DNA from: Hymenobacter montanus
GTDB lineage: Bacteria > Bacteroidota > Bacteroidia > Cytophagales > Hymenobacteraceae
Direction of reading: 5' to 3'
Length of the DNA: 64,000 bases
Assembly: GCF_014699115.1 (NCBI RefSeq)
Contig: NZ_JACXAD010000004.1
Location: 186,001 to 250,000 of the forward strand
Shown here: one piece after another, positions 6,885 to 38,108 of the stretch
Layout of the letters: each line of letters begins with the position of its first letter
Position numbering within the stretch: the stretch's first letter is position 1
Translations under genes and position numbers: made by a program
The notes under the pieces: model-generated
The model's input: only the letters and a program-made list of their open reading frames with translations
Database searches by the model: none
What the model was told of the DNA's origin: nothing

Positions 6885-7154
6885 ATGGCTAAAGAATCCA
6901 TCAAAGCACGGGAGCGCAAGCGCATTGCCACCGTGGCCCGCTACGCTGAAAAGCGCAAGGCTCTGAAAGCTGCCGGCGACTACGAAGGTCTCGACAAGCT
7001 GCCCAAAAACGCTTCGCCCGTGCGCCTGCACAACCGCGACATGATTGACGGCCGCCCCCGCGGCTACATGCGCAAGTTCGGCATCAGCCGCGTGCGTTTC
7101 CGCGAAATGGCGCTGGCCGGGAAAATTCCTGGCGTGACCAAGTCGAGCTGGTAG
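6885..7154 (+). CDS. rpsN: 30S ribosomal protein S14 (zinc-free type)
   Basis: The 89-residue protein is the long, cysteine-free form of S14 ([26 protein letters not shown] at the C terminus); there is no CxxC pair. S14 is assembled into the 30S head with S3 and S10. In nearly all bacteria rpsH follows directly, but here a strong terminator comes 30 bp after the stop and rpsH lies 30.6 kb downstream. Confidence 0.97.
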
Positions 7155-7454: not shown

Positions 7455-8615
7455 ATGGCTTTTCTGCGCAGTAAACGCTCCAATAGCAACACCCCGCTCC
7501 CAAAACTGAAAAGCCAGGTTCGGGAATGGACCAACTCGCTGATTTTTGCCATTGTGGCCGCCACGCTGCTGCGCTGGTCCACCGTAGAGGCCTACACCAT
7601 CCCCTCGGAGAGCATGGAGCGGTCGCTGTTAGTTGGCGATTGTTTGTTCGTGAGCAAGCTGCACTATGGACCCATCACTCCCCAAACGCCGTTACAGCTG
7701 CCGCTTACGCACCAGACTATTTGGGGCACGAAGCTGAAAAGCTACTCCGATCTGATTCAGTTGCCGGCTTATCGTTTTCCGGGGTTTAGCTCGGTGAAGC
7801 GCAACGACGTGGTTGTTTTTCACGTGCCCCACGAGCAGCAGCTACCGGCTGATATGCGGACTAACCTTATCAAGCGGTGCATTGCGGTGGCGGGAGATAC
7901 TCTGCAGCTTCGCAACGGCCAGGTGTTTCTCAATGGCCAAGCCGGGCCGGTAGCGGAGCAGCCCCAGACCACCTACTTCATGGCCGTTGACGCCCCCAAC
8001 GACGAAATCCGCCAAGCCCTGCGTGCGCAGGGAGTGGTAGACTACCAGGTACCCGAGGGCATTCCGCAGGTAGTGACTAACCCGGAAACCGGGCAAGCGG
8101 GCTTCGTTATCAGCTGCCCGGCCAAGGTGGCCGACTACTTCCGCCAGCAGCCTTACGTAAAAGCACTGACCGTGTTGACGCCTGAGGTGGCACTCTTCCC
8201 CGACGTGGCCGACTTTCATGGCAGTGCCGCAATGAGTGCAGTGCGCAACCATTGGCAGCTCGACAGCTACGGCCCCCTGCCGGTACCCCGGAAGGGACAG
8301 ACCATCGCGCTAACCCCCGCCAATGCCGCGATTTACTACAAAATCATATCGCAGTACGAGCACAATCAGGGCATCAGCTGGCAGGATGGCATGATCCAGC
8401 AGAATGGCCGGCCGTTGACCCACTATACCATCAAGCAGAATTACTATTTTATGATGGGCGACAACCGCCACAATTCGGAGGACTCGCGCTTCTGGGGCTT
8501 CGTACCGGAAGACCACCTCGTGGGCAAGGCCGTATTCATCTGGCTCTCCATTGATCCTTACGCAGATTTCTTCCACAAAATTCGTTGGAGCCGCGTGTTC
8601 CGCCCAATTAGCTAA
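7455..8615 (+). CDS. lepB: Signal peptidase I
   Basis: This 386-residue membrane protease removes signal peptides from exported preproteins. A membrane segment at about residues 27-45 precedes box B with the catalytic Ser53 (PSESMERSLL, Ser before Met54). The general-base Lys140 lies in LIKRCIAVAGDTL, and box E is GDNRHNSEDSRFWG near residue 340. The roughly 150-residue insertion between the Lys box and box E is usual in Bacteroidota enzymes, which are longer than E. coli LepB. The start ATG opens directly into a basic cytoplasmic tail. It is the first gene of the block that splits the ribosomal cluster. Confidence 0.96.
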   Translation: MAFLRSKRSNSNTPLPKLKSQVREWTNSLIFAIVAATLLRWSTVEAYTIPSESMERSLLVGDCLFVSKLHYGPITPQTPLQLPLTHQTIWGTKLKSYSDLIQLPAYRFPGFSSVKRNDVVVFHVPHEQQLPADMRTNLIKRCIAVAGDTLQLRNGQVFLNGQAGPVAEQPQTTYFMAVDAPNDEIRQALRAQGVVDYQVPEGIPQVVTNPETGQAGFVISCPAKVADYFRQQPYVKALTVLTPEVALFPDVADFHGSAAMSAVRNHWQLDSYGPLPVPRKGQTIALTPANAAIYYKIISQYEHNQGISWQDGMIQQNGRPLTHYTIKQNYYFMMGDNRHNSEDSRFWGFVPEDHLVGKAVFIWLSIDPYADFFHKIRWSRVFRPIS

Positions 8616-16714: not shown

Positions 16715-17702
16715 TTGGAAATGAAGGGCCCGTGCGCCCCCGGCGCGGAGCGGCCGGGCAGCTATTGGCGAAGACCCAGAAGGGAAAAGGGCGCTTTATC
16801 GCCACCCACCTCGTACCTCGTGCGCAGAAGGAAGGGGCAGCCGCTCGCAGTGTTCCGCCGCCCGGTCGGGCCGCCGTTGGTGCACCACGACGCCCGGCCC
16901 GAAGCCCCGGAATTGCCCGAAATGTGAAGCAAGGCCCGCGTTCGCCGCCAGAGGCGGATACGAGCTGGCTGCCGGGAGGCCACTGCCCGAACTGGGTAAG
17001 TCCGCCCGGCAAGGCTGGGTTAAGAGTTACTCAGCCCCGGTTGCCAATAGGCCGGTAAGGAAAGGATAAGCTGACCTAGCTTAACAACCCCGACCGGCCC
17101 GCCGCATACAGACGGCAGCACGCGGCGTACAACAACCCCCGTGGCTAATGGCAAACGGGGCGGGCGAGAAAACGGAGAGAGGACGCGAAAAGTCCATAGC
17201 GTTTGTTTTTATATGGTCAGGACTTGGCACCGTGCCAGCCGGGGCTGGGTGGTTGCCGGCGTTTCGTCGAGCCTGTCTCTCCACGCCTCTGTATAAAAAC
17301 AATCCTTTGGTCAGAAGGAATTGATGCCGCAAATGTAAAGCGGCATTTTTAAAAAAACCTAATTCAATCTCCGAATTTTGTTGCTATCAGCGGCGGAGTA
17401 CCCGGTGCCCCGCTCGTGGCAGATGGAATGAAATCCGTCCCGCAGGCCCGGATTAAAGGTATTCTTCCCCAAAACGCACGTCTTTGGCCGTAAGAACGGG
17501 CGAAAAGTACAGGCTCATTTTGTTTCGGTTAACCCGAAGGAATGCCGATAAAAAGGTGGGAGGCAGCCCCGGATACGTACGCCCCAGGCTTAGTAAATTC
17601 GTTCTGCACGCGCTACTTGTGGCCGTGACCTTGTTCGCCGACTACGGCCCCAGCGGCGCCCCCACTGGCACGGCAAAGCGGGCCCAGACCCGGATATGCC
17701 AA
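16715..17702. other. Long region upstream of the first susC gene
   Basis: Nearly 1 kb separates the susC start from the next element. No frame looks coding. The only promoter-like site is the minus-strand TACATTTG at 17330-17337, which would give a leader of about 600 nt. The flanks are GC-rich and the region around 17341-17380 is AT-rich, as expected for a promoter. Confidence 0.5.
17330..17337 (-). promoter_or_regulatory. Candidate -7 element for the first SusCD operon
   Basis: Read on the minus strand, the sequence is TACATTTG, a full match to TAnnTTTG. A T-rich tract, but no well-spaced TTG, lies upstream. It points toward the susC gene about 630 bp away, so the assignment depends on a long leader. 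Confidence 0.4.
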
Positions 17703-17744
17703 CAGGCCGTTGATTACTGCCAACTGGCAATAATCAACGGCCTG
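17703..17744 (-). repeat. susD-terminator hairpin, copy 1
   Basis: CAGGCCGTTGATTA (17703-17716) pairs perfectly with TAATCAACGGCCTG (17731-17744), and the inner TGCCA/TGGCA continues the stem. The same hairpin recurs at 19521-19581 and, directly behind an intact susD gene, at 25603-25650. Here it follows a decayed susD fragment on the minus strand, so it is best read as a fossil terminator. Confidence 0.7.
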
Positions 17745-17762
17745 CTTCTGGTGGGTTCGGAC

Positions 17763-17975
17763 CTAGTACCTTGGATTCCGCGAAAGGTGCGGAGTAATCT
17801 CCACCGACGGGGGCTAGAAGATAGATGGTTCCGGCCGTCTGGGGTCTATTTCCGCAGGGCAGCGGAAACTACAAATTGAATCCGGTCTTGCCGCTATGAC
17901 TCGTTGCGTGAGGCGGCAGTAAGGGCCGGTGTGGTCGCGTTGCCGCCGCGTAGAAGAACCTCAACTTTCATCCGG
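17763..17975 (-). pseudogene. Decayed 3' end of a susD gene, copy 1
   Basis: Minus-strand translation gives RMKVEVLLRGGNATTPALT, then NES*RQDRIQF, and in another frame VEITPHLSRNPRY*. These match the intact SusD encoded at 25674-27245 (LMKAEAILRGGTATSAG, NEEWRRQDLIRF, VDVNPNLAQNPGY*). At least two internal stops, a frameshift and a deletion between the blocks show it is not functional. It lies between the HExxH lipoprotein gene and hairpin copy 1. Confidence 0.75.
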
Positions 17976-18002
17976 TAGCCCCGGCTATTCGGAGCCTTCG
18001 GT

Positions 18003-19124
18003 TTAGGGCCGCGGGTTGATCAGCTGACTCTCCACCCGCTTCAAGTAGTTGATAGCCGTGGTTGAAAACACCGGGTAATCTCCCGACAACTGAGTCGCCG
18101 CCTTATTGTAGCTGTAGAAAAACTGGAATGGATTCTCCACGTCGGGCACGATCTCCCCCAGCAGGTTGGCCTGCTTGATGGCTTTGCCCATGTATTTGCC
18201 CGGCTGATGCCCCGCATCGGTTAGCACGGTTTCCCGGAACTGGGTCGCGTTGCTGATAACTTCTTGAGTACTTAACCGCTCCAGCTCCGCGTTCAGGGCC
18301 CTAATATAGTTTTTGGACAAGTTCTCGTCGTCGTAGCGGGGAACCAAGCTGGCAACCGGTGAATCCGGGCTGCCGAGAATTTCTTTGTCAATCAGGTCCG
18401 CAAGGCCTTCACCAGAGATGCCTCTAAGCGCGTCTTTCAGAATGACCCGGGCATCGGTATCGGGTAGTTGCAGCTTGAGGCGCTTTTGCAGCGCCACCCC
18501 GGTCACCGAGTGAAAGGCTTCGTGTGCCGTCAGGGTGCCCTTGCCTCGGGCGTAGCTGTCGATTTTATACGCCAGCAAGGCATCCTGTATAACTATGTCT
18601 GCGAACCCGTTGGCTTGCCCCTGCCCAAAATACGAGTACGTGATAGGTGGAATCAGGCTCTCCTGCTGCAGCCGGGGGGGGAGCATGGGGTAGAGATGCT
18701 GCTTCACCGCCTGGCCGATGCGGAGGCTGCCATCGTTCAGGCTCGCTGAATATGCTTTGAGCTGCGGCAGATTGCTTTTATACTCAAACTGGTAGGCGAG
18801 AAATGCCCGTTGCTCCGGCGTAAGGATCTCCGGCACCTTGTAAGTCCCCCGCATGTAGTCTTGCTGCTCCTGAGCCGTCGAGATTCCCCTTTTGATGAGC
18901 AAATCGTAAATATACGTACCCAACAAGGCATCCCAATCGGCTTGCGGGGGCTCCTGCTTGGCCGAAAGGGTTTCGGCAATCTTGATGTAATAATCGAGCG
19001 GCTTGGTGTCGACGCGGAGGTCGGGGCCGGAGGGGCCGGAAGGGGTTACGTCCGCGTCTTTTTTGCAAGCGGTGAGCAGCAGCAGCGGGGCGAGCAGCAG
19101 CCGGAAAATAGTTGAAGTTTTCAT
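18003..19124 (-). CDS. Lipoprotein with a zinc-peptidase-like HExxH motif, copy A (DUF5700-like)
   Basis: This 373-residue protein has a lipoprotein signal ending at Cys20 (LLLLTAC) and a Lys/Asp-rich linker. The central region contains HEAFH (His201, Glu202, His205) in TLTAHEAFHSVTG, followed about 35 residues later by GEGLADLIDKE, where Glu239 could be the third zinc ligand of a gluzincin. The pattern resembles the DUF5700 family of putative zinc-dependent peptidases, but the fold is assigned by motif only. It is one of two tandem paralogues; copy B at 19783-20898 is nearly the same over its length. Both lie downstream of a LytTR regulator or its fragment. Confidence 0.8.
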   Translation of the reverse strand: MKTSTIFRLLLAPLLLLTACKKDADVTPSGPSGPDLRVDTKPLDYYIKIAETLSAKQEPPQADWDALLGTYIYDLLIKRGISTAQEQQDYMRGTYKVPEILTPEQRAFLAYQFEYKSNLPQLKAYSASLNDGSLRIGQAVKQHLYPMLPPRLQQESLIPPITYSYFGQGQANGFADIVIQDALLAYKIDSYARGKGTLTAHEAFHSVTGVALQKRLKLQLPDTDARVILKDALRGISGEGLADLIDKEILGSPDSPVASLVPRYDDENLSKNYIRALNAELERLSTQEVISNATQFRETVLTDAGHQPGKYMGKAIKQANLLGEIVPDVENPFQFFYSYNKAATQLSGDYPVFSTTAINYLKRVESQLINPRP

Positions 19125-19287
19125 AAAAAGTTTAGGGTTTAGCGAGGAGCTGCTGGCAGCTCAGATGGTTGGCTTGAATACTGCCGGCCCGCCGCAAGAG
19201 TTGAATCAGAATGACAACCTTCCCCAATCGCATGACAACCTGGTGCAAAACCAGTATGAGTCGGCCTGGGTCCATTTTTAGCCCCCC

Positions 19288-19484
19288 ATAAGCGGGCTAG
19301 GAAAGCCGCGCGGTAGGATTCGCTCAGCGGAACGGTGGTCCGGCCCAGTTGAATCAGGCTGCCCTCCACTTACCGGATGTTGGCCAGCGCAACCAGGTAC
19401 GACTTGTGCACCCGCACGAAGCCCGCGTCGTCGAGCGTGGCGGCCAGGGCTGAGATTTTGCCCGGCACGAGCAGCGTTTCGCCA
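19288..19484 (-). pseudogene. Truncated LytTR response-regulator fragment
   Basis: This segment is nearly identical to the last 65 codons of the response regulator at 21123-21827. A TAA replaces the Gln codon in NIRQVEGS, the normal stop after FLARL is lost, and homology stops abruptly at about 19484. It is the left-over end of a tandem duplication that copied the lipoprotein gene with part of its upstream neighbour. Confidence 0.85.
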
Positions 19485-19520
19485 GCTGCCCTAGCCGGTC
19501 CACAGGCTAGTAAAAGATAG

Positions 19521-19581
19521 CCCAAAGCACATAAGCAGGCCGTTGATTATTGTAGTCAACGGCCTGCTTATGCGCTTTGGG
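19521..19581 (-). repeat. susD-terminator hairpin, copy 2
   Basis: Arms of 26 bp (19521-19546 and 19556-19581) pair with one mismatch around a 9-nt loop; the core is AAGCAGGCCGTTGA with TCAACGGCCTGCTT. The flank at 19487-19520 also resembles the sequence beyond the intact susD terminator (CCCTAGC...CCACA.GCTAGTAA), which shows that the whole 3' flank was copied. Confidence 0.75.
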
Positions 19582-19596
19582 CTGGTGGTGGAACGA

Positions 19597-19745
19597 CTAC
19601 CCTAGGTTCCGCGCGTTCGGGGTAACATCCTCTTGTATTCGCGGAAAGGCTGGGACCTGTCGTCGCTCCGGGGCGTACCGACGTAGGGTAGCGGAAACTT
19701 ATCGACCCGAATCGGGTCTTGCTGTAACTCCTCGTCGCAGAGCTC
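19597..19745 (-). pseudogene. Decayed 3' end of a susD gene, copy 2
   Basis: Minus-strand translation gives ELCDEELQQDPIRVDKF and, with a frame change, FPRIQEDVTPNARNLG*. They correspond to RELYNEEWRRQDLIRFGKF and FPIPQTQVDVNPNLAQNPGY* of the intact SusD at 25674-27245. The frame is broken and no start remains. It keeps a different portion of the gene than copy 1, so the two fossils decayed separately. Confidence 0.75.
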
Positions 19746-19764
19746 CCAGCCGGAGCCCCTCGGT

Positions 19765-19788
19765 TTAGGGTTAGGGTTAGGGTTAGGG
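19765..19788 (+). repeat. (TTAGGG)4 tandem repeat at the end of lipoprotein copy B
   Basis: Four exact TTAGGG units run across the stop codon of the copy B gene. The same position behind copy A (about 18003-18008) has a single unit, so the array arose by slippage after the duplication. Confidence 0.9.
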
Positions 19789-20898
19789 CCGCGGGTTGAT
19801 CACCTGACCCTCCACCTGCTTTAGGTAGTTGATGGCCGTGGTTGAGAACACCGGGTAATCTCCCGACAACTGAGTCGCCGCCTTATTGTAGCTGTAGAAA
19901 AACTGGAATGGATTATCCACGTCGGCCACAACCTCACCCAGCAGGTTAGCCTGTTTGATGGCTTTGCCCATGTACTGCCCCGGCTGATGTCCCGCGGCGT
20001 CTAGCACGGCTCTTTTGAATTGGTTCGGGTCGCTGATAGTCTCGTCGGTGCTCAACCGCTCCAGCTCCGCATTGAGGGCCCTGATATTGGCTTTAGACAA
20101 GTTATCATCGTAGCGCGGAACCAAGCCGGCAACCCGTGAATCGGGGCTGGTGAGAATTTCTTTGTCAATCTGGTCTGCCATGCCTTCCTGGCCGATGCTC
20201 GTAAGCGCCTCTCTCAGAATGACCCGGGCATCAGTATCGGGCAGTTGCTTGAAGCGCCTCTTCTGCGCCACCCCGGTCACCGAGTGGAAGGCTTCGTGCG
20301 CCGTCAGGGTGCCTCTGGTCCGGGCATAGCTGTCGACTTTATACGCCAGCAAAGCATCCTGTATAACTGCTTCCGCGAACCCGTTGGCTTGCCCTGGCCC
20401 GAAGTACGTGTACATGACGGGTGGAATCAGGCTCTCCTGCTGCAGCCGGAGGGGGAGCATGGGGTAGAGATGCTGCTTGACCGCCTGGCCGATGCGGAGG
20501 CTGCCATCGTTCAGGCTCGCCGAATACGCTTTGAGTTCCGGCAGATAGCTTTTGTACTCAAAACCATACGCCAGAAAGGTCCGCTGCTCCGGCGTAAGGG
20601 TCTCCGGCACCTTATAAACCCCCCGCAGATAGTCTTGCTGCTCCTCGCGCGTCGAGATTCCTCTTTTGATGACCAAATCGTAAATGAACGTTCCCAAAAG
20701 GGCGTCCCAATCGGCTTGCGAGGGTTCCTGCTTCGCCGAAAGGGTTTCGGCAATCTTGATGTAATAATCGAGCGGCTTGGTGTCGACGCGGAGGTCGGGG
20801 CCGGAGGGGCTGGAAGGGGTTACGTCCGCGTCTTTTTTGCAAGCGGTGAGCAGCAGCAGCGGGGCGAGCAGCAGCCGGAAAATAGTTGAAGTTTTCAT
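19783..20898 (-). CDS. Lipoprotein with a zinc-peptidase-like HExxH motif, copy B (DUF5700-like)
   Basis: This 371-residue paralogue of copy A has the same lipoprotein signal (Cys20), the HEAFH motif in TLTAHEAFHSVTG, a matching downstream acidic motif (GQEGMADQIDKE) and the same C-terminal FFYSYNKAATQLSGDYPVF block. Differences are scattered substitutions and short indels, and the frame is intact, so both copies appear to be under selection or are recently duplicated. The LytTR regulator that precedes it on the same strand is intact, unlike that before copy A, and may control it. The substrate is unknown. Confidence 0.8.
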   Translation of the reverse strand: MKTSTIFRLLLAPLLLLTACKKDADVTPSSPSGPDLRVDTKPLDYYIKIAETLSAKQEPSQADWDALLGTFIYDLVIKRGISTREEQQDYLRGVYKVPETLTPEQRTFLAYGFEYKSYLPELKAYSASLNDGSLRIGQAVKQHLYPMLPLRLQQESLIPPVMYTYFGPGQANGFAEAVIQDALLAYKVDSYARTRGTLTAHEAFHSVTGVAQKRRFKQLPDTDARVILREALTSIGQEGMADQIDKEILTSPDSRVAGLVPRYDDNLSKANIRALNAELERLSTDETISDPNQFKRAVLDAAGHQPGQYMGKAIKQANLLGEVVADVDNPFQFFYSYNKAATQLSGDYPVFSTTAINYLKQVEGQVINPRP

Positions 20899-21122
20899 AA
20901 AAAGTTTAGGGTTTAGCGAAGAGCTGATGGCAGTTCAGATGGTTGGCCTGAATACTGCCGGCCCATTACCAAGGTTGAACCGGAATGACAACCTCCCCTA
21001 ATGGCATGACAACATGGTGTAAAACCAGTATGAGTCGGCTTGGCTCTGGCTGCCATCCAATGGTGGCGAAGCGCTTGCGCTACGCCGTCAGCGGGTGCCT
21101 GGCGGGGTCCATTTTTAGCTCT

Positions 21123-21827
21123 TTACAACCGGGCCAGGAAAGCCGCGCGGTAGGATTCGCTCAGCGGAACGGTGGCCCGGCCCAGTTGAATCAGGCTGCC
21201 CTCCACCTGCCGGATGTTGGCCAGCGCAACCAGGTACGACTTGTGCACCCGCACGAAGCCCGCGTCGTCGAGCGTGGCGGCCAGGGCTGAGATTTTGCCC
21301 GGTACGAGCAGGGCTTCGCCACCGGTCATGTGCACTTTCACGTAGTTGCCGCAAGCCTCGATGAACGCGATGTCTTGTACGAACACCTTGCGAAATGCCT
21401 TGTCCACCTTGAAAAACAGGTAGTCGAGGGGCCTGCGGGGCGGGGGCGCAATGGGCGCGGCGGGGGGCACGAGCAGGGCGCGGTCCAGGGCTTTAAGGAA
21501 CCGGTTGAGGGCAATGGGCTTGAGCAGGTAGTCGACCACACCCAGGTCATAGCTGGGCAGGGCGTATTCGGCGTAGGCCGTGGTGAGGATGATGCGGGGC
21601 GGCTGCGGCAGCGAGCGGATGAGCGCGAAGCCGTCCACTTCGGGCATTTTGATGTCGCAGCACATAATATCCACCGGCGTTTGACGCAGTACGGCCAGGG
21701 CCTCGTAGGCGTTGGCGCAGCTGCCGGCCAGGCGCAGGTCGGGACGTGTTCCCACGTAGCGCTCCAGCACTTCGCGGGCCAGGGGCTCGTCGTCGACGAG
21801 CAGGATTTGGGTCAGAGTTTCAGCCAC
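21123..21827 (-). CDS. LytTR-family response regulator
   Basis: The 234-residue protein has a receiver domain (residues 5-120) with the acidic pair VDDE, phospho-acceptor Asp58 in CCDIKMPEVDG and Lys103 in YLLKPI. A LytTR DNA-binding domain follows at about 130-232 (FIEACGNYVKVH, FVRVHKSYLVAL). It is the output half of the two-component system whose kinase gene overlaps it by 16 bp upstream. LytTR regulators usually bind direct repeats near the genes they control; the lipoprotein gene downstream is the obvious candidate target. A 3' fragment of this gene was duplicated at 19288-19484. Confidence 0.95.
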   Translation of the reverse strand: MAETLTQILLVDDEPLAREVLERYVGTRPDLRLAGSCANAYEALAVLRQTPVDIMCCDIKMPEVDGFALIRSLPQPPRIILTTAYAEYALPSYDLGVVDYLLKPIALNRFLKALDRALLVPPAAPIAPPPRRPLDYLFFKVDKAFRKVFVQDIAFIEACGNYVKVHMTGGEALLVPGKISALAATLDDAGFVRVHKSYLVALANIRQVEGSLIQLGRATVPLSESYRAAFLARL

Positions 21828-22816
21828 AGGTGTACGCGGTATTCGTGTTCGGTTTCCGTCAGGGTTAGTTCATGGCGGTCGGGGTAGAGCAGCTGCAGGC
21901 GCTTACGCACGTTGGCGAGCCCGGTACGCGTGCTCTTGGTCGGTGGCGGCGTAGCGGGCTTGGAGTTGACGACCTGGAAGAACAGCTCGTTGCCTTGCCA
22001 GGAAGCGTCAATCTCGACACGAATATTTTGCACCTGGGTTTCGACGCCGTGTTTGAAAGCGTTTTCTACGAAGGGCAGCAGCAGCATCGGTGCCAGAAAC
22101 ACGTCGGTCACGTCGCCCTGCTGCCGAAACACGACCTCGGCGCTGGGGTTGAGCCGGATGCGCTCCAGGGTCAGGTAATTGTCGAGGTAAGTCAATTCCT
22201 CGGCCAGCCCCACCTCGGGTTGCGCCGCGGTGGCCACCATGTAGCGCATCAGGTCGGCTAGCCGGAGTATAGTGTCGGGGGCGCGACCCGTGTCGCGCAG
22301 GGTCAGGGCATAGATGCTGTTCAGAGTATTGAATAGAAAGTGCGGATTGACCTGCGCCTTGAGCAGTTGCAGCTCCTGCTCGGCCTGCGTGCGTTCGAGA
22401 ACCTCGACTCTGAGTCGCACCTGAGAGTCGTCGCGCAGGAGCTTGATGCCCAGTGTGAGGACCATAAACAGCAGCAGTGTGATCGCGCGCGCGGCCAGCA
22501 TGTACTTAGCGCCGATCCACCAGACCAACAAGGTGGCGTTGAGCCACGCCACGCCCAGTATCAGCCCGACCACGGCCGCGAAGTAGGCCACGTAGCGGCG
22601 GCGGCGCAGCAGGCGCGGCAGCAGGAAGTAATTATGCAGGTAGGTGCTGCCGGCAAAGGCGAACAACACCCAGAGAGAAGCCGCAATGTTGATCGGCCTG
22701 CTCTGGCCAGAGCCAGGCACCAATGAATTGAAGACCCCCAAACCCAACAGAACCAGCCAGAAACCGAGGTGCAGCAGGACGCGGCGTGCGAGCGGGGAAA
22801 GGGAGGGGGCCTTCAT
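21812..22816 (-). CDS. LytS-type sensor histidine kinase
   Basis: The start is placed at MKAPSLSPLARR (base 22816); an ATG 14 codons upstream is possible. Four hydrophobic segments in the first 140 residues form a 2TM-2TM sensor. The His_kinase domain follows, with the phospho-accepting His in KAQVNPHFLFNTLNSIY, and then an ATP-binding region with the N box LLPFVENAFKHG and the G box TGLANVRKRL. It phosphorylates the LytTR regulator encoded immediately downstream, with which it overlaps by 16 bp. No extracellular sensing domain is visible. Confidence 0.94.
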   Translation of the reverse strand: MKAPSLSPLARRVLLHLGFWLVLLGLGVFNSLVPGSGQSRPINIAASLWVLFAFAGSTYLHNYFLLPRLLRRRRYVAYFAAVVGLILGVAWLNATLLVWWIGAKYMLAARAITLLLFMVLTLGIKLLRDDSQVRLRVEVLERTQAEQELQLLKAQVNPHFLFNTLNSIYALTLRDTGRAPDTILRLADLMRYMVATAAQPEVGLAEELTYLDNYLTLERIRLNPSAEVVFRQQGDVTDVFLAPMLLLPFVENAFKHGVETQVQNIRVEIDASWQGNELFFQVVNSKPATPPPTKSTRTGLANVRKRLQLLYPDRHELTLTETEHEYRVHLWLKL

Positions 22817-23426
22817 GGCGGCAAAGTAGGCAGGATTACTCAGTGGTTCACCTGCCAAAGCACTAAGGCTAAGTCATTACTGGACTAAACCCAGATGCAT
22901 CTGGCGATTTCATGCCTGTTATTGCCTGACTTACCCCCGGATTTGCCGCACTCGTCATTCTTCTTAGTTCAAATCCAGAGGCCGCTACAAATCCATCGTA
23001 CAACGGGGCGAAATAAGGGAGCCAGTGGTTTCTGGCTGCGGATGCTTTCCTGGAAATGCGCAAGAAATATGCGGGTATTTTGCTGTCTGTCGTCTTGGCT
23101 CTGTGAAGTCTTCGCAGGTTGACCGCCCGGGCGCTACCCGGCTGCGAGCCCTTAAGCTGACAACCAAGTGTCATCAATGTCCACGCTCTGATGCTTGAAA
23201 ACGACTTTTCTGATTTTCTGAACAAGCAAAAGCACGCCTCCAAGTGCCTAATTAAACCACTAGGCAGCGGAGCCTGCTCAGCCTACTGCTCCCTGTCCTA
23301 ACGCACTAAACCCGTGGGCTGCCTGTGCCCGACGCCGCCGTGCGGGCAGCAACCCGGTGCTGGTGCTCAAGTAAGTACTTCCTTTTTGTCGTCTACCACT
23401 GTTTTATCAACTTTTTTGCTCCTTTC
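22817..23426. other. Divergent intergenic region between the kinase and M1 peptidase genes
   Basis: About 610 bp lie between the two divergent starts. The frames here have no recognisable family or coding character, and no complete TTG/TAnnTTTG promoter is visible on either strand. Confidence 0.5.
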
Positions 23427-25478: not shown

Positions 25479-25602
25479 CTTGGGGCGCGGCTTTGGGCTG
25501 GGCTACTTTCCGGAGACCTATTAAGAACCTCTTACGGGGCTAAGGTGCCCTACCAGCCCTCATTGTCCGCCCTAGCAGTCCACACGCTAGTAAGCCATAC
25601 AT

Positions 25603-25650
25603 AAACAGGCCGTTGATTACCGCCACTTAGCAGTAATCAACGGCCTGTTT
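25603..25650 (-). terminator. Terminator hairpin behind the second susD gene
   Basis: An 18-bp perfect stem (25603-25620 with 25633-25650, core AACAGGCCGTTGATTA) surrounds a 12-nt loop just beyond the susD stop and faces the end of the M1 peptidase gene. Its convergent position suits a bidirectional terminator. It is the intact parent form of the two fossil hairpins at 17703 and 19521. Confidence 0.75.
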
Positions 25651-25673
25651 AGGTGATCGGGCTGGTAGCTAAG

Positions 25674-27245
25674 CTAGTACCCCGGGTTCTGCGCCAGGTT
25701 CGGATTAACGTCCACCTGCGTTTGGGGGATGGGGAAGAGCAGGTACTTGTCGGCGCTCTGGGGCTTACTGGCGCGGGGCAGCAGGAACTTACCGAAGCGA
25801 ATCAGGTCTTGCCGGCGCCATTCCTCGTTGTAGAGTTCCCGGCCGCGCTCATCGAGCAGCTCATCCAGGGAGAGGGAAGTCAGCGCGCTGGCTCCGCGGG
25901 AAGGGTGGGTGCGAATGGCATTGACCAGATCCAGGGGAGTACTGCCGTAAGAACCGGCGCTAGTCGCGGTGCCGCCGCGTAGAATGGCCTCAGCCTTCAT
26001 CAGCAACACATCGGCCAGGCGGAAGCTCACGTGGTCATTATCGGCTCCGCCGTTGCCGCCCCTTTCTTCGCTGGCGTAGTCCACTGGATATTTCAGCGGA
26101 CGGATGCCCTTCACTTCGAGGTCGCGGCCCGTTTCGATAATGTTGATGTCCTTGGTAAAAATAAGCGGCGCGCCCGAGCGGTCCTGGAGCGGCGCGTCGT
26201 CTTTGAAGCTGTACTGCTGGCCCGCGAAGTAGCCCACGTTGGTGCGGTTGCCCGGGTTAGTGGCGTTGGGCGAGTTAGCCCGGTAAGCGCTGCCCCGCCG
26301 CTTATCGGTTGCCTCATACCTATCGTACGTTACGGGGGTGGTGGCTGGGCCATTGTAGCCGTTGACGGGAACCAGGTTGTAATGCAAGACAAACTTCCAG
26401 TAATCCCGAACGGCCCCGGCATTGCCGTAGCTATTCTCCTGGGTGAAGATATTCTCCTTGCCGATGGCCGTATTGTTAGGGGCGAAGTTATCGAAGTAGT
26501 TGTCGGTGAACGTGTACCGGCCGCTATTAATCAACTCATCGGCTAGCCTGATAACCTGATTCATGTCGGCCGCGTCGAAGGTTGGCGCTTTACGGTTGGC
26601 ATAAGCCCCTTTGTTGAGGTAGCATTTCATCAGCAGGGCACGGGCCGCGTCTTTGTTGGCTTTGCCGGCCGGCCCAGCGGGCAAGTCTGGCTGCACCGCC
26701 TGGATTTCGCTAATGATGTAGGCCAGCGCTTCGGTACCTCTCCGAACCCGGGACGGATCGGCCACGCTTTCGCCGGGGTCGCGGTACGGCACTTGGTCGT
26801 AAAGGTCCAGCTCCCAGAACATGGCCCAGGCCCGCAGGAAGCGCGCTTCGGCCTGCTGCTGAATGCTGGGGTTATACCGCAGGATGTCGGTGGCCGCAAA
26901 CACCACGTAGTTCAATTGACTGAACGTATCGCGGACGCGGTCGTTGTTGGCATCCCAGGTGTGCAGGTGCAGCGCCCGCCATTTGCCGTTATCGTCCCAG
27001 TCGGGCCCCCGGGTAGGCATAATAACCTCGTCGGTAGACACCTCCTCCAGCGCATACACACTTTGGCAGCCCTGAATGGGGTCGCGCAGCGTATTGTAGA
27101 CTCCAACCAAAAGGGCATCCGGGCTACCGGCGACAACTTGGTCGGAGGTTAAATTCCCCTTAAACTCCTCGTTGAGAGAGCAGCTGTTCAGTAGCGGCAA
27201 CAGGGCTAGAATGGCCGCCGTGCCGACGCGTTTTTTCTTCGTCAT
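25674..27245 (-). CDS. SusD/RagB-like outer-membrane lipoprotein (second pair)
   Basis: The 523-residue protein has a lipoprotein signal with Cys22 (LPLLNSC), a SusD helical core (QQQAEARFLRAWAMFWELDLYDQVPY) and the ending VNPNLAQNPGY. It captures substrate for the SusC transporter encoded 20 bp upstream. Two broken copies of its 3' end occur 6-8 kb away beside the HExxH lipoprotein genes. A LacI regulator is divergently encoded next to the operon, which is a common arrangement for glycan or nutrient SusCD loci, but no glycoside hydrolase for polysaccharides is nearby. Confidence 0.94.
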   Translation of the reverse strand: MTKKKRVGTAAILALLPLLNSCSLNEEFKGNLTSDQVVAGSPDALLVGVYNTLRDPIQGCQSVYALEEVSTDEVIMPTRGPDWDDNGKWRALHLHTWDANNDRVRDTFSQLNYVVFAATDILRYNPSIQQQAEARFLRAWAMFWELDLYDQVPYRDPGESVADPSRVRRGTEALAYIISEIQAVQPDLPAGPAGKANKDAARALLMKCYLNKGAYANRKAPTFDAADMNQVIRLADELINSGRYTFTDNYFDNFAPNNTAIGKENIFTQENSYGNAGAVRDYWKFVLHYNLVPVNGYNGPATTPVTYDRYEATDKRRGSAYRANSPNATNPGNRTNVGYFAGQQYSFKDDAPLQDRSGAPLIFTKDINIIETGRDLEVKGIRPLKYPVDYASEERGGNGGADNDHVSFRLADVLLMKAEAILRGGTATSAGSYGSTPLDLVNAIRTHPSRGASALTSLSLDELLDERGRELYNEEWRRQDLIRFGKFLLPRASKPQSADKYLLFPIPQTQVDVNPNLAQNPGY

Positions 27246-36996: not shown

Positions 36997-37215
36997 AGCC
37001 GCCAACACTGCGCTGCCAAGGGCCGACGGAATAGCCGTGATAAGCCGTCTGAGCTAGATATGCCCCTACCCCCTAATCCGGTATTCATCTTCGGCAGCTA
37101 CAATTACCCTGCACACGAGCCGGTGGTTGCACTACTCCATAAGCTAACCCAAGTTGCGAACTAGCCTCATAGTGGCGGGAGGTTGGTAGTAAGTCAACGA
37201 GGCCATGTAGTTGAG
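36997..37215. other. Intergenic region before the nested palindrome
   Basis: No gene is visible between the muramidase stop and the palindromic element at 37216. Together with the element and its right flank, this stretch forms the junction of the inserted block with the second half of the ribosomal cluster. Confidence 0.5.
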
Positions 37216-37368
37216 AGCCGCGTAGCGGCGGCAGGTTGGTAGCCTAAAGTAAGGAGGAGGTGAGAGCCGCGTAGCGGTGACAGGCTCGTCTGGCCACCCT
37301 GTCACCGCTACGCGGCTTTATCCGGGCAGGTGTTCCATTTTCTACCAACCTACCGCCGCGACGCGGCT
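37216..37368. repeat. Nested palindromic element, copy 1 (153 bp)
   Basis: Outer arms of 27 bp (37216-37242 and 37342-37368) match at 25 positions and end in GGTTGGTAG/CTACCAACC. Inside is a perfect 20-bp stem (37265-37284 with 37298-37317, core GCCGCGTAGCGGTGACAGG). Inner and outer arms share the GCCGCGTAGCGG core. Related elements occur at 54244-54398 and 61988-62142, always between genes. It resembles a MITE or a REP-type element; no transposase is visible. Confidence 0.85.
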
Positions 37369-37497
37369 AGTCAGCAACTTGGATTAAGCTATGTGAATTT
37401 GCAGGGCCAACCTTCCGGCTCGCGTACCCATTGGCACAGCCGAGTACCGGGAGCCAATGAAATAGCTGCTGTTTTCGGGAGAATTTAAACTATACGC

Positions 37498-37528
37498 TTG
37501 CAAAAGCCTTGTGGGCCTGTTACCTTTG
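37498..37528 (+). promoter_or_regulatory. Distal promoter of the rpsH operon
   Basis: TTG at 37498-37500 and TACCTTTG at 37521-37528 are 20 bp apart, a full Bacteroidota promoter match. It would give a leader of about 175 nt before rpsH. That leader can fold: CCAAAT (37534-37539) pairs with ATTTGG (37561-37566) around GGGG/CCCC, and AAATTTCG/CGAAATTT lies further on. Confidence 0.7.
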
Positions 37529-37645
37529 CCCTCCCAAATCCGGGGGAAGGCCCCTAACTATATTTGGCAGGTTGCCAAGAGAAACCATTGGCTGCACCGT
37601 CGCCGGGCAAGCCAAGTAGTCTTAACCGAAATTTCGTTGGTCCCG

Positions 37646-37676
37646 TTGGGAGCCCGGCGAAATTTTCTTATCTTTG
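37646..37676 (+). promoter_or_regulatory. Proximal promoter of the rpsH operon
   Basis: TTG at 37646-37648 and TATCTTTG at 37669-37676 are 20 bp apart, with rpsH starting 33 bp later. It is an exact match and allows the second half of the ribosomal cluster to be expressed independently of the rplC promoter. Confidence 0.8.
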
Positions 37677-37709
37677 CGCTCCGAAAAAAGCGGACGCATT
37701 TAATAATCA

Positions 37710-38108
37710 ATGAATACTGACCCCATTGCCGACTACCTGACCCGGGTGCGCAACGCCATCAAGGCGAACCACCGGGTGGTAGAAATCCCGGCCAGCAACA
37801 TCAAAAAGGAAATCACGAAGGTGCTCTACCACAAGGGCTACATTCAATCGTACCGCTTTGATGATTCGTCGGTTCAGGGCACCATCAAAATTGCCCTGAA
37901 GTACAACCCGACCACCAAGGCACCCGCCATCACCAAGCTGCAGCGCGTTTCGACGCCCGGCTTGCGTCAGTACGTGGGGGCCGATAACCTGCCCCGGGTA
38001 CTCAGCGGTTTGGGGGTCGCCATCATCTCGACCTCGAAAGGCGTGATGACGGAGAAAGAGTGCAAAACCGAGAACGTAGGCGGCGAGGTGCTGTGCTACG
38101 TGTACTAA
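37710..38108 (+). CDS. rpsH: 30S ribosomal protein S8
   Basis: The 132-residue protein has the S8 signatures DPIADYLTRVRNAIKANHR and the C-terminal GLGVAIISTSKGVMTEKECKTENVGGEVLCYVY. S8 binds the central domain of 16S rRNA; in E. coli it also represses its own (spc) operon by binding the mRNA near rplE. Here rplE and rpsN lie 30 kb away in another transcription unit, so that feedback could not act on both halves in the usual manner. It is the first gene of the re-started cluster. Confidence 0.98.
   Translation: MNTDPIADYLTRVRNAIKANHRVVEIPASNIKKEITKVLYHKGYIQSYRFDDSSVQGTIKIALKYNPTTKAPAITKLQRVSTPGLRQYVGADNLPRVLSGLGVAIISTSKGVMTEKECKTENVGGEVLCYVY

Follow-up and report, generated by a model that had tools for sequence, protein, structure and literature searches.

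A tandem duplication carrying two DUF5700 lipoprotein genes beside a LytS/LytTR system in Hymenobacter montanus

Introduction

Two-component systems of the LytS/LytTR type, such as YpdA/YpdB of Escherichia coli, consist of a PF06580 sensor kinase and a PF00072/PF04397 response regulator. The LytTR sites described in the consulted excerpt of PMC4847170 are composed of two direct or inverse repeats of 9–11 nucleotides (nt), which are located 11–13 nt apart and have no common consensus. Here we analyze a locus of Hymenobacter montanus, contained in a window of 64,000 nt (contig NZ_JACXAD010000004.1, positions 186,001 to 250,000), in which a system of the same domain composition stands next to a tandem duplication carrying a lipoprotein gene of the DUF5700 family. 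The putative operator found there consists of two 10-bp direct repeats with 11 bp between them, which is within the range given in that excerpt, while the repeat sequence differs from that of YpdA/YpdB, and the predicted target is a duplicated peptidase lipoprotein.

The DUF5700 family (PF18958) is described as a "putative zinc dependent peptidase", and plasmid records label its members "DUF5700 domain-containing putative Zn-dependent protease". A literature search for DUF5700 found no paper mentioning the family in the library covered, and no paper linking it to a LytTR operator was found among the matches listed, as represented by their titles and the beginnings of their abstracts. As that search found no paper on the family, the predicted regulator, its operator and the duplicated target would together offer a tangible starting point for learning how these putative peptidases are turned on. 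Homogenization of tandem duplicates by gene conversion is a general pattern. Every part of the locus described here belongs to a known kind, and the duplicated unit works as an internal clock, in which live genes were copied along with defunct ends of the regulator and of susD, making the retention of duplicates, their decay and their conversion measurable within one 3.6-kb stretch.

Results

Two units in direct order with a single junction

The alignment of the two units showed that they are arranged in direct order; the parts of the locus are the following.

17701–19484, no strand: unit 1 (hairpin, susD fossil, lipoprotein gene A, broken regulator end)
19485–19487, no strand: junction between the units
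19488–21321, no strand: unit 2 of the tandem duplication
18003–19124, minus strand: lipoprotein gene A, DUF5700 putative zinc peptidase, 373 amino acids (PF18958, 134.7 bits)
19783–20898, minus strand: lipoprotein gene B, DUF5700 putative zinc peptidase, 371 amino acids (PF18958, 130 bits)
19268–19484, minus strand: broken LytTR regulator 3′ end with a little downstream sequence (204/217 identical to 21105–21321)
21123–21827, minus strand: intact LytTR response regulator (PF00072, 71.8 bits, and PF04397, 56.7 bits, both over the cut-off)
21812–22858, minus strand: LytS-type sensor histidine kinase (PF06580)

On the minus strand, the sensor kinase is followed by the regulator, lipoprotein gene B, a susD fossil and a hairpin, and then by the broken regulator end, lipoprotein gene A, the other susD fossil and its hairpin. 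A first-pass annotation of the window had proposed a tandem duplication with a hairpin, a decayed susD 3′ end, the lipoprotein gene and the end of a LytTR regulator in each unit, and the alignment of both units agrees with it, except that the left edge, which had been placed at 17690, is detectable only from the hairpin edge at 17701. The homology to the regulator in unit 1 stops at 19484, and from 19488 on the sequence is homologous to the downstream side of an intact susD gene (25569 onward), which places the junction within three bases and matches the sharp junction annotated at 19484–19487. The regulator is intact only in unit 2, as had also been noted; the copy in unit 1 has lost its start and contains an in-frame stop at 19370–19372. 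The uneven divergence between the units, a third hairpin with the source susD gene, and the LytTR-type direct repeat before both lipoprotein genes were absent from that annotation.

The lipoprotein gene together with its leader is 87% identical at the DNA level between the units over 1276 columns. No third copy of this gene was found in the 5.37-Mb genome, and the best match of the regulator fragment outside the locus was limited to 76% over 68 bp. Hence, the equal similarity to other genomic loci, which the first-pass annotation had named as an observation that would speak against the duplication, was not found. These data correspond to a single tandem duplication, with direct copies, one sharp junction and no other similar locus, while the ages of its parts appear uneven. 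The units also differ by a 63-bp indel (21040–21102), which is present only in unit 2, between the putative operator and the regulator stop codon, and which has no second copy anywhere in the genome; the susD fossils have suffered different losses in the two units. An assembly artefact was ruled out, because the gene bodies differ by 13.8% and the units differ by indels.

Single-copy orthologues were not found in close relatives. The best match of the lipoprotein outside the genome was 47% identical and came from another family of the order Cytophagales (genome G143), and the best-scoring outside match of the regulator was 49% identical among the matches listed, with at most 19 candidates scored per genome. 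Hence, no one-unit outgroup was usable for polarizing the duplication.

Decayed susD ends and hairpins

The susD remnants and hairpins were compared with an intact susD gene of the same window.

17763–17972, minus strand: susD 3′-end fossil of unit 1, about 130 bp of the intact gene gone (matches 25674–25814 and 25944–26001)
19643–19752, minus strand: susD 3′-end fossil of unit 2 (matches 25733–25845)
25674–27245, minus strand: intact susD; both fossils are related to its 3′ end and to the hairpin downstream of it
17701–17750, no strand: unit 1 hairpin, probable transcription terminator (−39 kcal/mol, z −9.1 for 17695–17755)
19519–19583, no strand: unit 2 hairpin, probable transcription terminator (−54.5 kcal/mol, z −12.9 for 19510–19590)
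25599–25654, no strand: third hairpin, in the gap between the susD gene and the M1 peptidase gene convergent with it (−43 kcal/mol, z −8.9 for 25592–25662)

With the hairpins left out and expectation values (E) calculated for the 64-kb window, the unit 2 fossil was 73% identical to 25733–25845 (E 4e-14), while in unit 1 the stretch 17916–17972 was 79% identical to 25944–26001 (E 5e-8) and 17763–17893 was 69% identical to 25674–25814 (E 2e-6), so that the decayed susD 3′ ends of the first-pass annotation are real. The fossils contain frame-breaking gaps. Judged by the ends of the local alignments, the equivalent of 25944–26001 is present in unit 1 and missing from unit 2, while that of 25815–25845 is present in unit 2 and missing from unit 1. 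The fact that each unit retains a susD piece missing from the other suggests that the susD end was probably longer in the ancestral unit, and that the decay continued after the duplication.

The third hairpin stands behind the intact susD. Of the six hairpin arms at these three sites, five carry an exact 14-base core, and the remaining arm differs from it at a single base; elsewhere in the genome the core has one more match, with one mismatch. The very stable stems suggest that all three hairpins are probably transcription terminators. A mobile repeat as the cause of the duplication was ruled out, as the stretch of the 63-bp indel is single-copy and the hairpin core is exact only at the three described sites.

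Both lipoprotein genes look functional

Both lipoproteins match positions 1–280 of the 283 positions of the PF18958 model, for which the curated Pfam gathering cut-off is 25 bits. This near full-length match, together with the HExxH motif and the downstream glutamate kept in both copies, makes them similar to other DUF5700 proteins. In lipoprotein A an HEAFH motif and a lipobox-like LTAC were read by eye. In a 12-member alignment, also inspected by eye, the lipobox was seen in the window pair and in one relative with 47% identity (L073), while the other members have a plain signal peptide. The identity to DUF5700 members of the same genus was 24–30% where they matched, with 38% over one 64-residue match, which suggests that the window pair forms a separate, rare branch of the family. 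A search of PDB sequences with the lipoproteins gave no credible relative (best E 0.056), and a search of NCBIfam gave no match at E 0.01. The gene probably encodes a zinc peptidase anchored in the outer membrane or at the cell surface, which may belong to the HExxH + E metallopeptidases of gluzincin type, in whose fold HExxH and a distal glutamate bind the zinc.

The two proteins are 85% identical (314/371). Over 371 aligned codons the synonymous divergence (dS) was 0.296 and the nonsynonymous divergence (dN) 0.092. The divergence was uneven: codons 62–371 had a dS of 0.365 and a dN of 0.107, with a pairwise dN/dS ratio (omega) of 0.29 (bootstrap 0.20–0.43), while the dS of codons 1–61 was only 0.043. 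The first-pass annotation had pointed out that both genes stay open and had proposed a comparison of synonymous and amino-acid changes; the low omega of codons 62–371 indicates purifying selection. Hence, both genes look functional and appear to have been retained by selection.

When compared to the nearest outgroup, L073, nine changes were unique to A, 10 were unique to B, and 38 were ambiguous. Among the 57 residue differences between A and B, one falls on the 50 conserved columns, defined as those shared by at least 80% of 18 family members (hypergeometric p 0.0014). All members of two DUF5700 alignments, one of 12 and one of 18 sequences, share residues H201, E202, H205 and E238, and the differences between A and B showed no significant clustering (p 0.23). 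The near absence of differences from conserved columns and the lack of clustering leave diversification of the active site without support, and this candidate was rejected.

At 19764–19788, at and just behind the stop codon of gene B, four (T)TTAGGG units are present, where unit 1 has only one at the corresponding position; the run probably arose by slippage.

Divergence between the units is uneven

The percentage of differing sites varied strongly along the units. It was 22.7% in the unit tail (47/207), 13.8% in codons 62–371 (128/929, all sites), and 2.2% in codons 1–61 (4/183), while the leader was identical (0/21). Further upstream, 15% of sites differed in 19146–19265, which holds the putative operator (18/120), as did 7/37 sites in the stretch 3′ of the regulator, 1.9% in the core of the broken regulator (3/161), and 3/19 at the regulator end. 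A scan statistic over 731 columns regarded as roughly neutral (third codon positions, non-coding sequence and the regulator fragment), with scoring parameters set after the alignment had been seen, identified two tracts using 10,000 permutations.

19299–19465, no strand: tract of low divergence within the broken regulator end (3 of 167 columns differ; 0/10000 permutations)
18963–19190, no strand: low-divergence tract covering signal peptide, leader and first upstream bases (4/120 scored columns; 0/10000 permutations)

The latter is the second segment of the scan and overlaps the start of the 15% stretch; it was still prominent when the third positions of the lipoprotein were used alone (p 0.0026). 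Both tracts are unexpected under uniform divergence. Because the leader and the regulator fragment are nearly identical amid a strongly diverged remainder, the duplication appears to be old, with parts of it homogenized later. The dead regulator fragment is 98% identical amid drifting neighbours, for which gene conversion is most likely the best explanation. Constraint on the intact regulator copy would, by a rough reckoning, at most halve the divergence expected for the fragment. As in tandem duplicates homogenized by conversion, low-divergence tracts lie here inside more diverged direct repeats. This case differs in that one tract is a dead regulator fragment, which makes it easier to argue for conversion than in functional genes.

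A putative LytTR operator before both genes

A repeat search on the coding strand showed a direct repeat with a 21-bp period, located 87–116 bp upstream of both start codons.

19211–19240, minus strand: putative LytTR operator of gene A, GGTTGTCAT-N12-GGTTGTCAT, 21-bp period
20985–21014, minus strand: putative LytTR operator of gene B, with the outer base of the first half as its single mismatch

In unit 1 the repeat can also be written as an exact 10-bp direct repeat with an 11-bp spacer, AGGTTGTCAT-N11-AGGTTGTCAT, and unit 2 has the same arrangement with the one mismatch, its first half being TGTTGTCAT in place of GGTTGTCAT. An exact 9-bp repeat with a period of 20–24 bp was obtained in 0.2% of 5000 mononucleotide shuffles of the 180-bp region. 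The cores of the half-sites are kept between the otherwise diverged copies, and exact matches to the core GTTGnCAT-N13-GTTGnCAT were found in the genome only at the two window sites. Outside this genome, exact core matches occurred at one place among 174 loci, in G007 (overlapping loci L010, L034 and L084), where the site is located between a divergent kinase gene and a DUF5700 gene. When one mismatch per half was allowed, there were eight matches in the 962,375 bp of 49 loci, three of them within the 433 bp that were scanned ahead of the DUF5700 genes of L084 and L086. In a third species, syntenic with the second, this core is present with one mismatch; since L084 and L086 appear syntenic, they count as one.

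Distribution and gene context of DUF5700

With the window genome included, DUF5700 was found in 28 of 149 relatives (27 above the curated cut-off), in 39 of 390 genomes of the order (32 above it), and in 17 of 395 genomes of the class (9 above it), while one of 14 control genomes gave a match, which was below the cut-off. The family is uncommon. A scan of genome contigs with a single-protein query found no relative, while an alignment query found two. For the gene context, 50 loci were examined, that is, 49 fetched ones, of which L113 is without a DUF5700 gene call, and the window; this set leaves out weak matches, at about 32 bits or lower. A LytS/LytTR gene was located within 300 bp of DUF5700 in six of the 50 loci (the window, L073, L080, L084, L086 and L089), in four arrangements; the search models had been seeded from six of the loci, which favours their recovery. 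In the fetched loci, five of eight places with a kinase or regulator adjoin DUF5700, when about one in eight is expected from a rough gene count (p ~0.001, ignoring the kinship of the loci).

A plasmid of Spirosoma oryzicola contains two DUF5700 genes, which are 27% identical to each other and lie near a TonB-dependent receptor, with a HAMP-type kinase and regulator, not of the LytS/LytTR type, about 3.4 kb away. On a second plasmid of this strain, a DUF5700 copy with internal stops is present (L103:9482–10570), while the two copies on the other plasmid are uninterrupted.

Discussion

The locus as a whole is best explained by an old tandem duplication with retained peptidase genes, shared LytS/LytTR control, and later conversion, for which we estimate a probability of about 0.62. 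An ordinary duplication in place would have copied the 3′ part of the regulator, the DUF5700 lipoprotein gene, the susD 3′ end and the terminator hairpin. Both lipoprotein genes would have been kept working, each with its own putative operator and its own terminating hairpin, while the susD remnants decayed separately. The copies would have recombined with each other later, most likely by gene conversion, which would have homogenized again the signal-peptide and leader stretch and the regulator end. In the present-day system, the kinase would sense an outside signal and the neighbouring regulator would bind the paired repeat before both genes, so that two surface lipoprotein peptidases would be made in an amount set by the two-component system, with the hairpins terminating each lipoprotein transcript.

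The near-identical stretches could instead be held by selection at the DNA level, acting on promoter, leader and translation start, after a single duplication with no later exchange. Such constraint is plausible for the tract spanning signal peptide, start codon and leader; however, the other tract is the core of a dead regulator fragment, where coding constraint is not expected in unit 1 and nevertheless 3/161 sites differ, and 19146–19265, with the putative operator in it, is among the diverged parts, which makes this explanation unlikely. The presence of two divergence classes inside one unit and the sharp end at 19484 would also fit two events, in which an old duplication of the lipoprotein gene was followed by a recent recopying of the regulator end and leader in front of gene A. 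We consider this quite improbable, because the diverged stretch between the young tracts and the common order of the parts demand extra steps, while the junction abuts susD-downstream sequence, as one tandem duplication predicts.

A different doubt concerns the regulation, as the neighbouring LytTR system might not control the lipoprotein pair, with the direct repeat being a chance leftover that was copied along. Descending from a single ancestral site, the two window sites amount to one observation, and L073, L080 and L089, the other loci in which DUF5700 is linked to a kinase or regulator, have no such site at up to one mismatch per half, both of which favour chance. On the other hand, the length, spacing and position of the repeat fit the LytTR sites of the PMC4847170 excerpt, its half-site cores are kept between diverged copies, and in two further species, the second and a third syntenic with it, the core with its period recurs between the kinase and DUF5700 genes, in the third with one mismatch. 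Hence, a chance origin appears somewhat unlikely, and the 21-bp-period repeat is most likely a LytTR binding site.

The explanation by old duplication, shared control and later conversion also has to be weighed against the following points, besides the single count and the three loci without a site. Two low-divergence tracts split by a diverged stretch need two conversion events or another cause. The pairwise omega leaves constraint on each copy separately unprovable. An AlphaFold2 model built from four sequences had a mean predicted local distance difference test (pLDDT) value of 46, which is too poor to judge a peptidase fold. The degenerate N of the operator core was fixed after the second species had been seen. 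At up to two mismatches the core has 67 matches in the genome versus 37 for a reversed control pattern, and at one mismatch it has four, one of which overlaps the unit 1 hairpin; these data suggest that weak matches to the core are unspecific.

The first-pass annotation had suggested dosage or diversification as the reason for two open genes. The shared signal peptide, leader and putative operator point to dosage, while its second suggestion found no support as far as the active site is concerned. Since the copies share both control region and signal peptide, an extra dose is the simpler reading, and the diverged bodies of the lipoproteins leave room for different substrates. A wider view, which we offer tentatively as possible, although the odds are not in its favour, is that DUF5700 lipoproteins are the dedicated output, and perhaps a part of the sensing loop, of a recurring Cytophagales LytS/LytTR module with a GTTGnCAT direct-repeat operator, whose target has been duplicated here, with gene conversion having kept the control regions of the copies alike. 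The neighbours of the locus include an M14 carboxypeptidase, an M1 peptidase, a SusD gene next to a gene identified by eye as SusC-like, and another SusC/SusD pair; the surrounding peptidases and SusCD pairs suggest the use of proteins or peptides.

A split ribosomal protein operon

The duplication locus is located within a 30.6-kb insertion (7155–37709, 30,555 bp) of about 16 unrelated genes, which splits a ribosomal protein operon between rpsN (S14, 6885–7154) and rpsH (S8, 37710–38108). In relatives, the gap between these genes was 183–1391 bp in 15 of 29 short loci, namely those with S14 in reach; for 17 of 20 longer stretches, whose genomes partly overlap those of the short loci, it was between 193 bp and 6.8 kb. 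The gap contains different genes in different species. In G021 it reaches 38.3 kb, and no gene of the window island was matched there at E 1e-10. The gap looks like a recurrent insertion site within an essential operon; a literature search on rpsN–rpsH insertion gave no mention of Hymenobacter among the matches listed. A signal peptidase (S26) gene inside the gap (7455–8615) is also found upstream of rpsH in seven of the 20 relatives' stretches, in one of which the contig ends before rpsN, which makes this gene a possible marker of an early insertion. The non-coding stretch before rpsH (36997–37709) contains inverted repeats, for example AGAGCCGCGTAGCGGTGACAGG and its complement, which were identified by eye.

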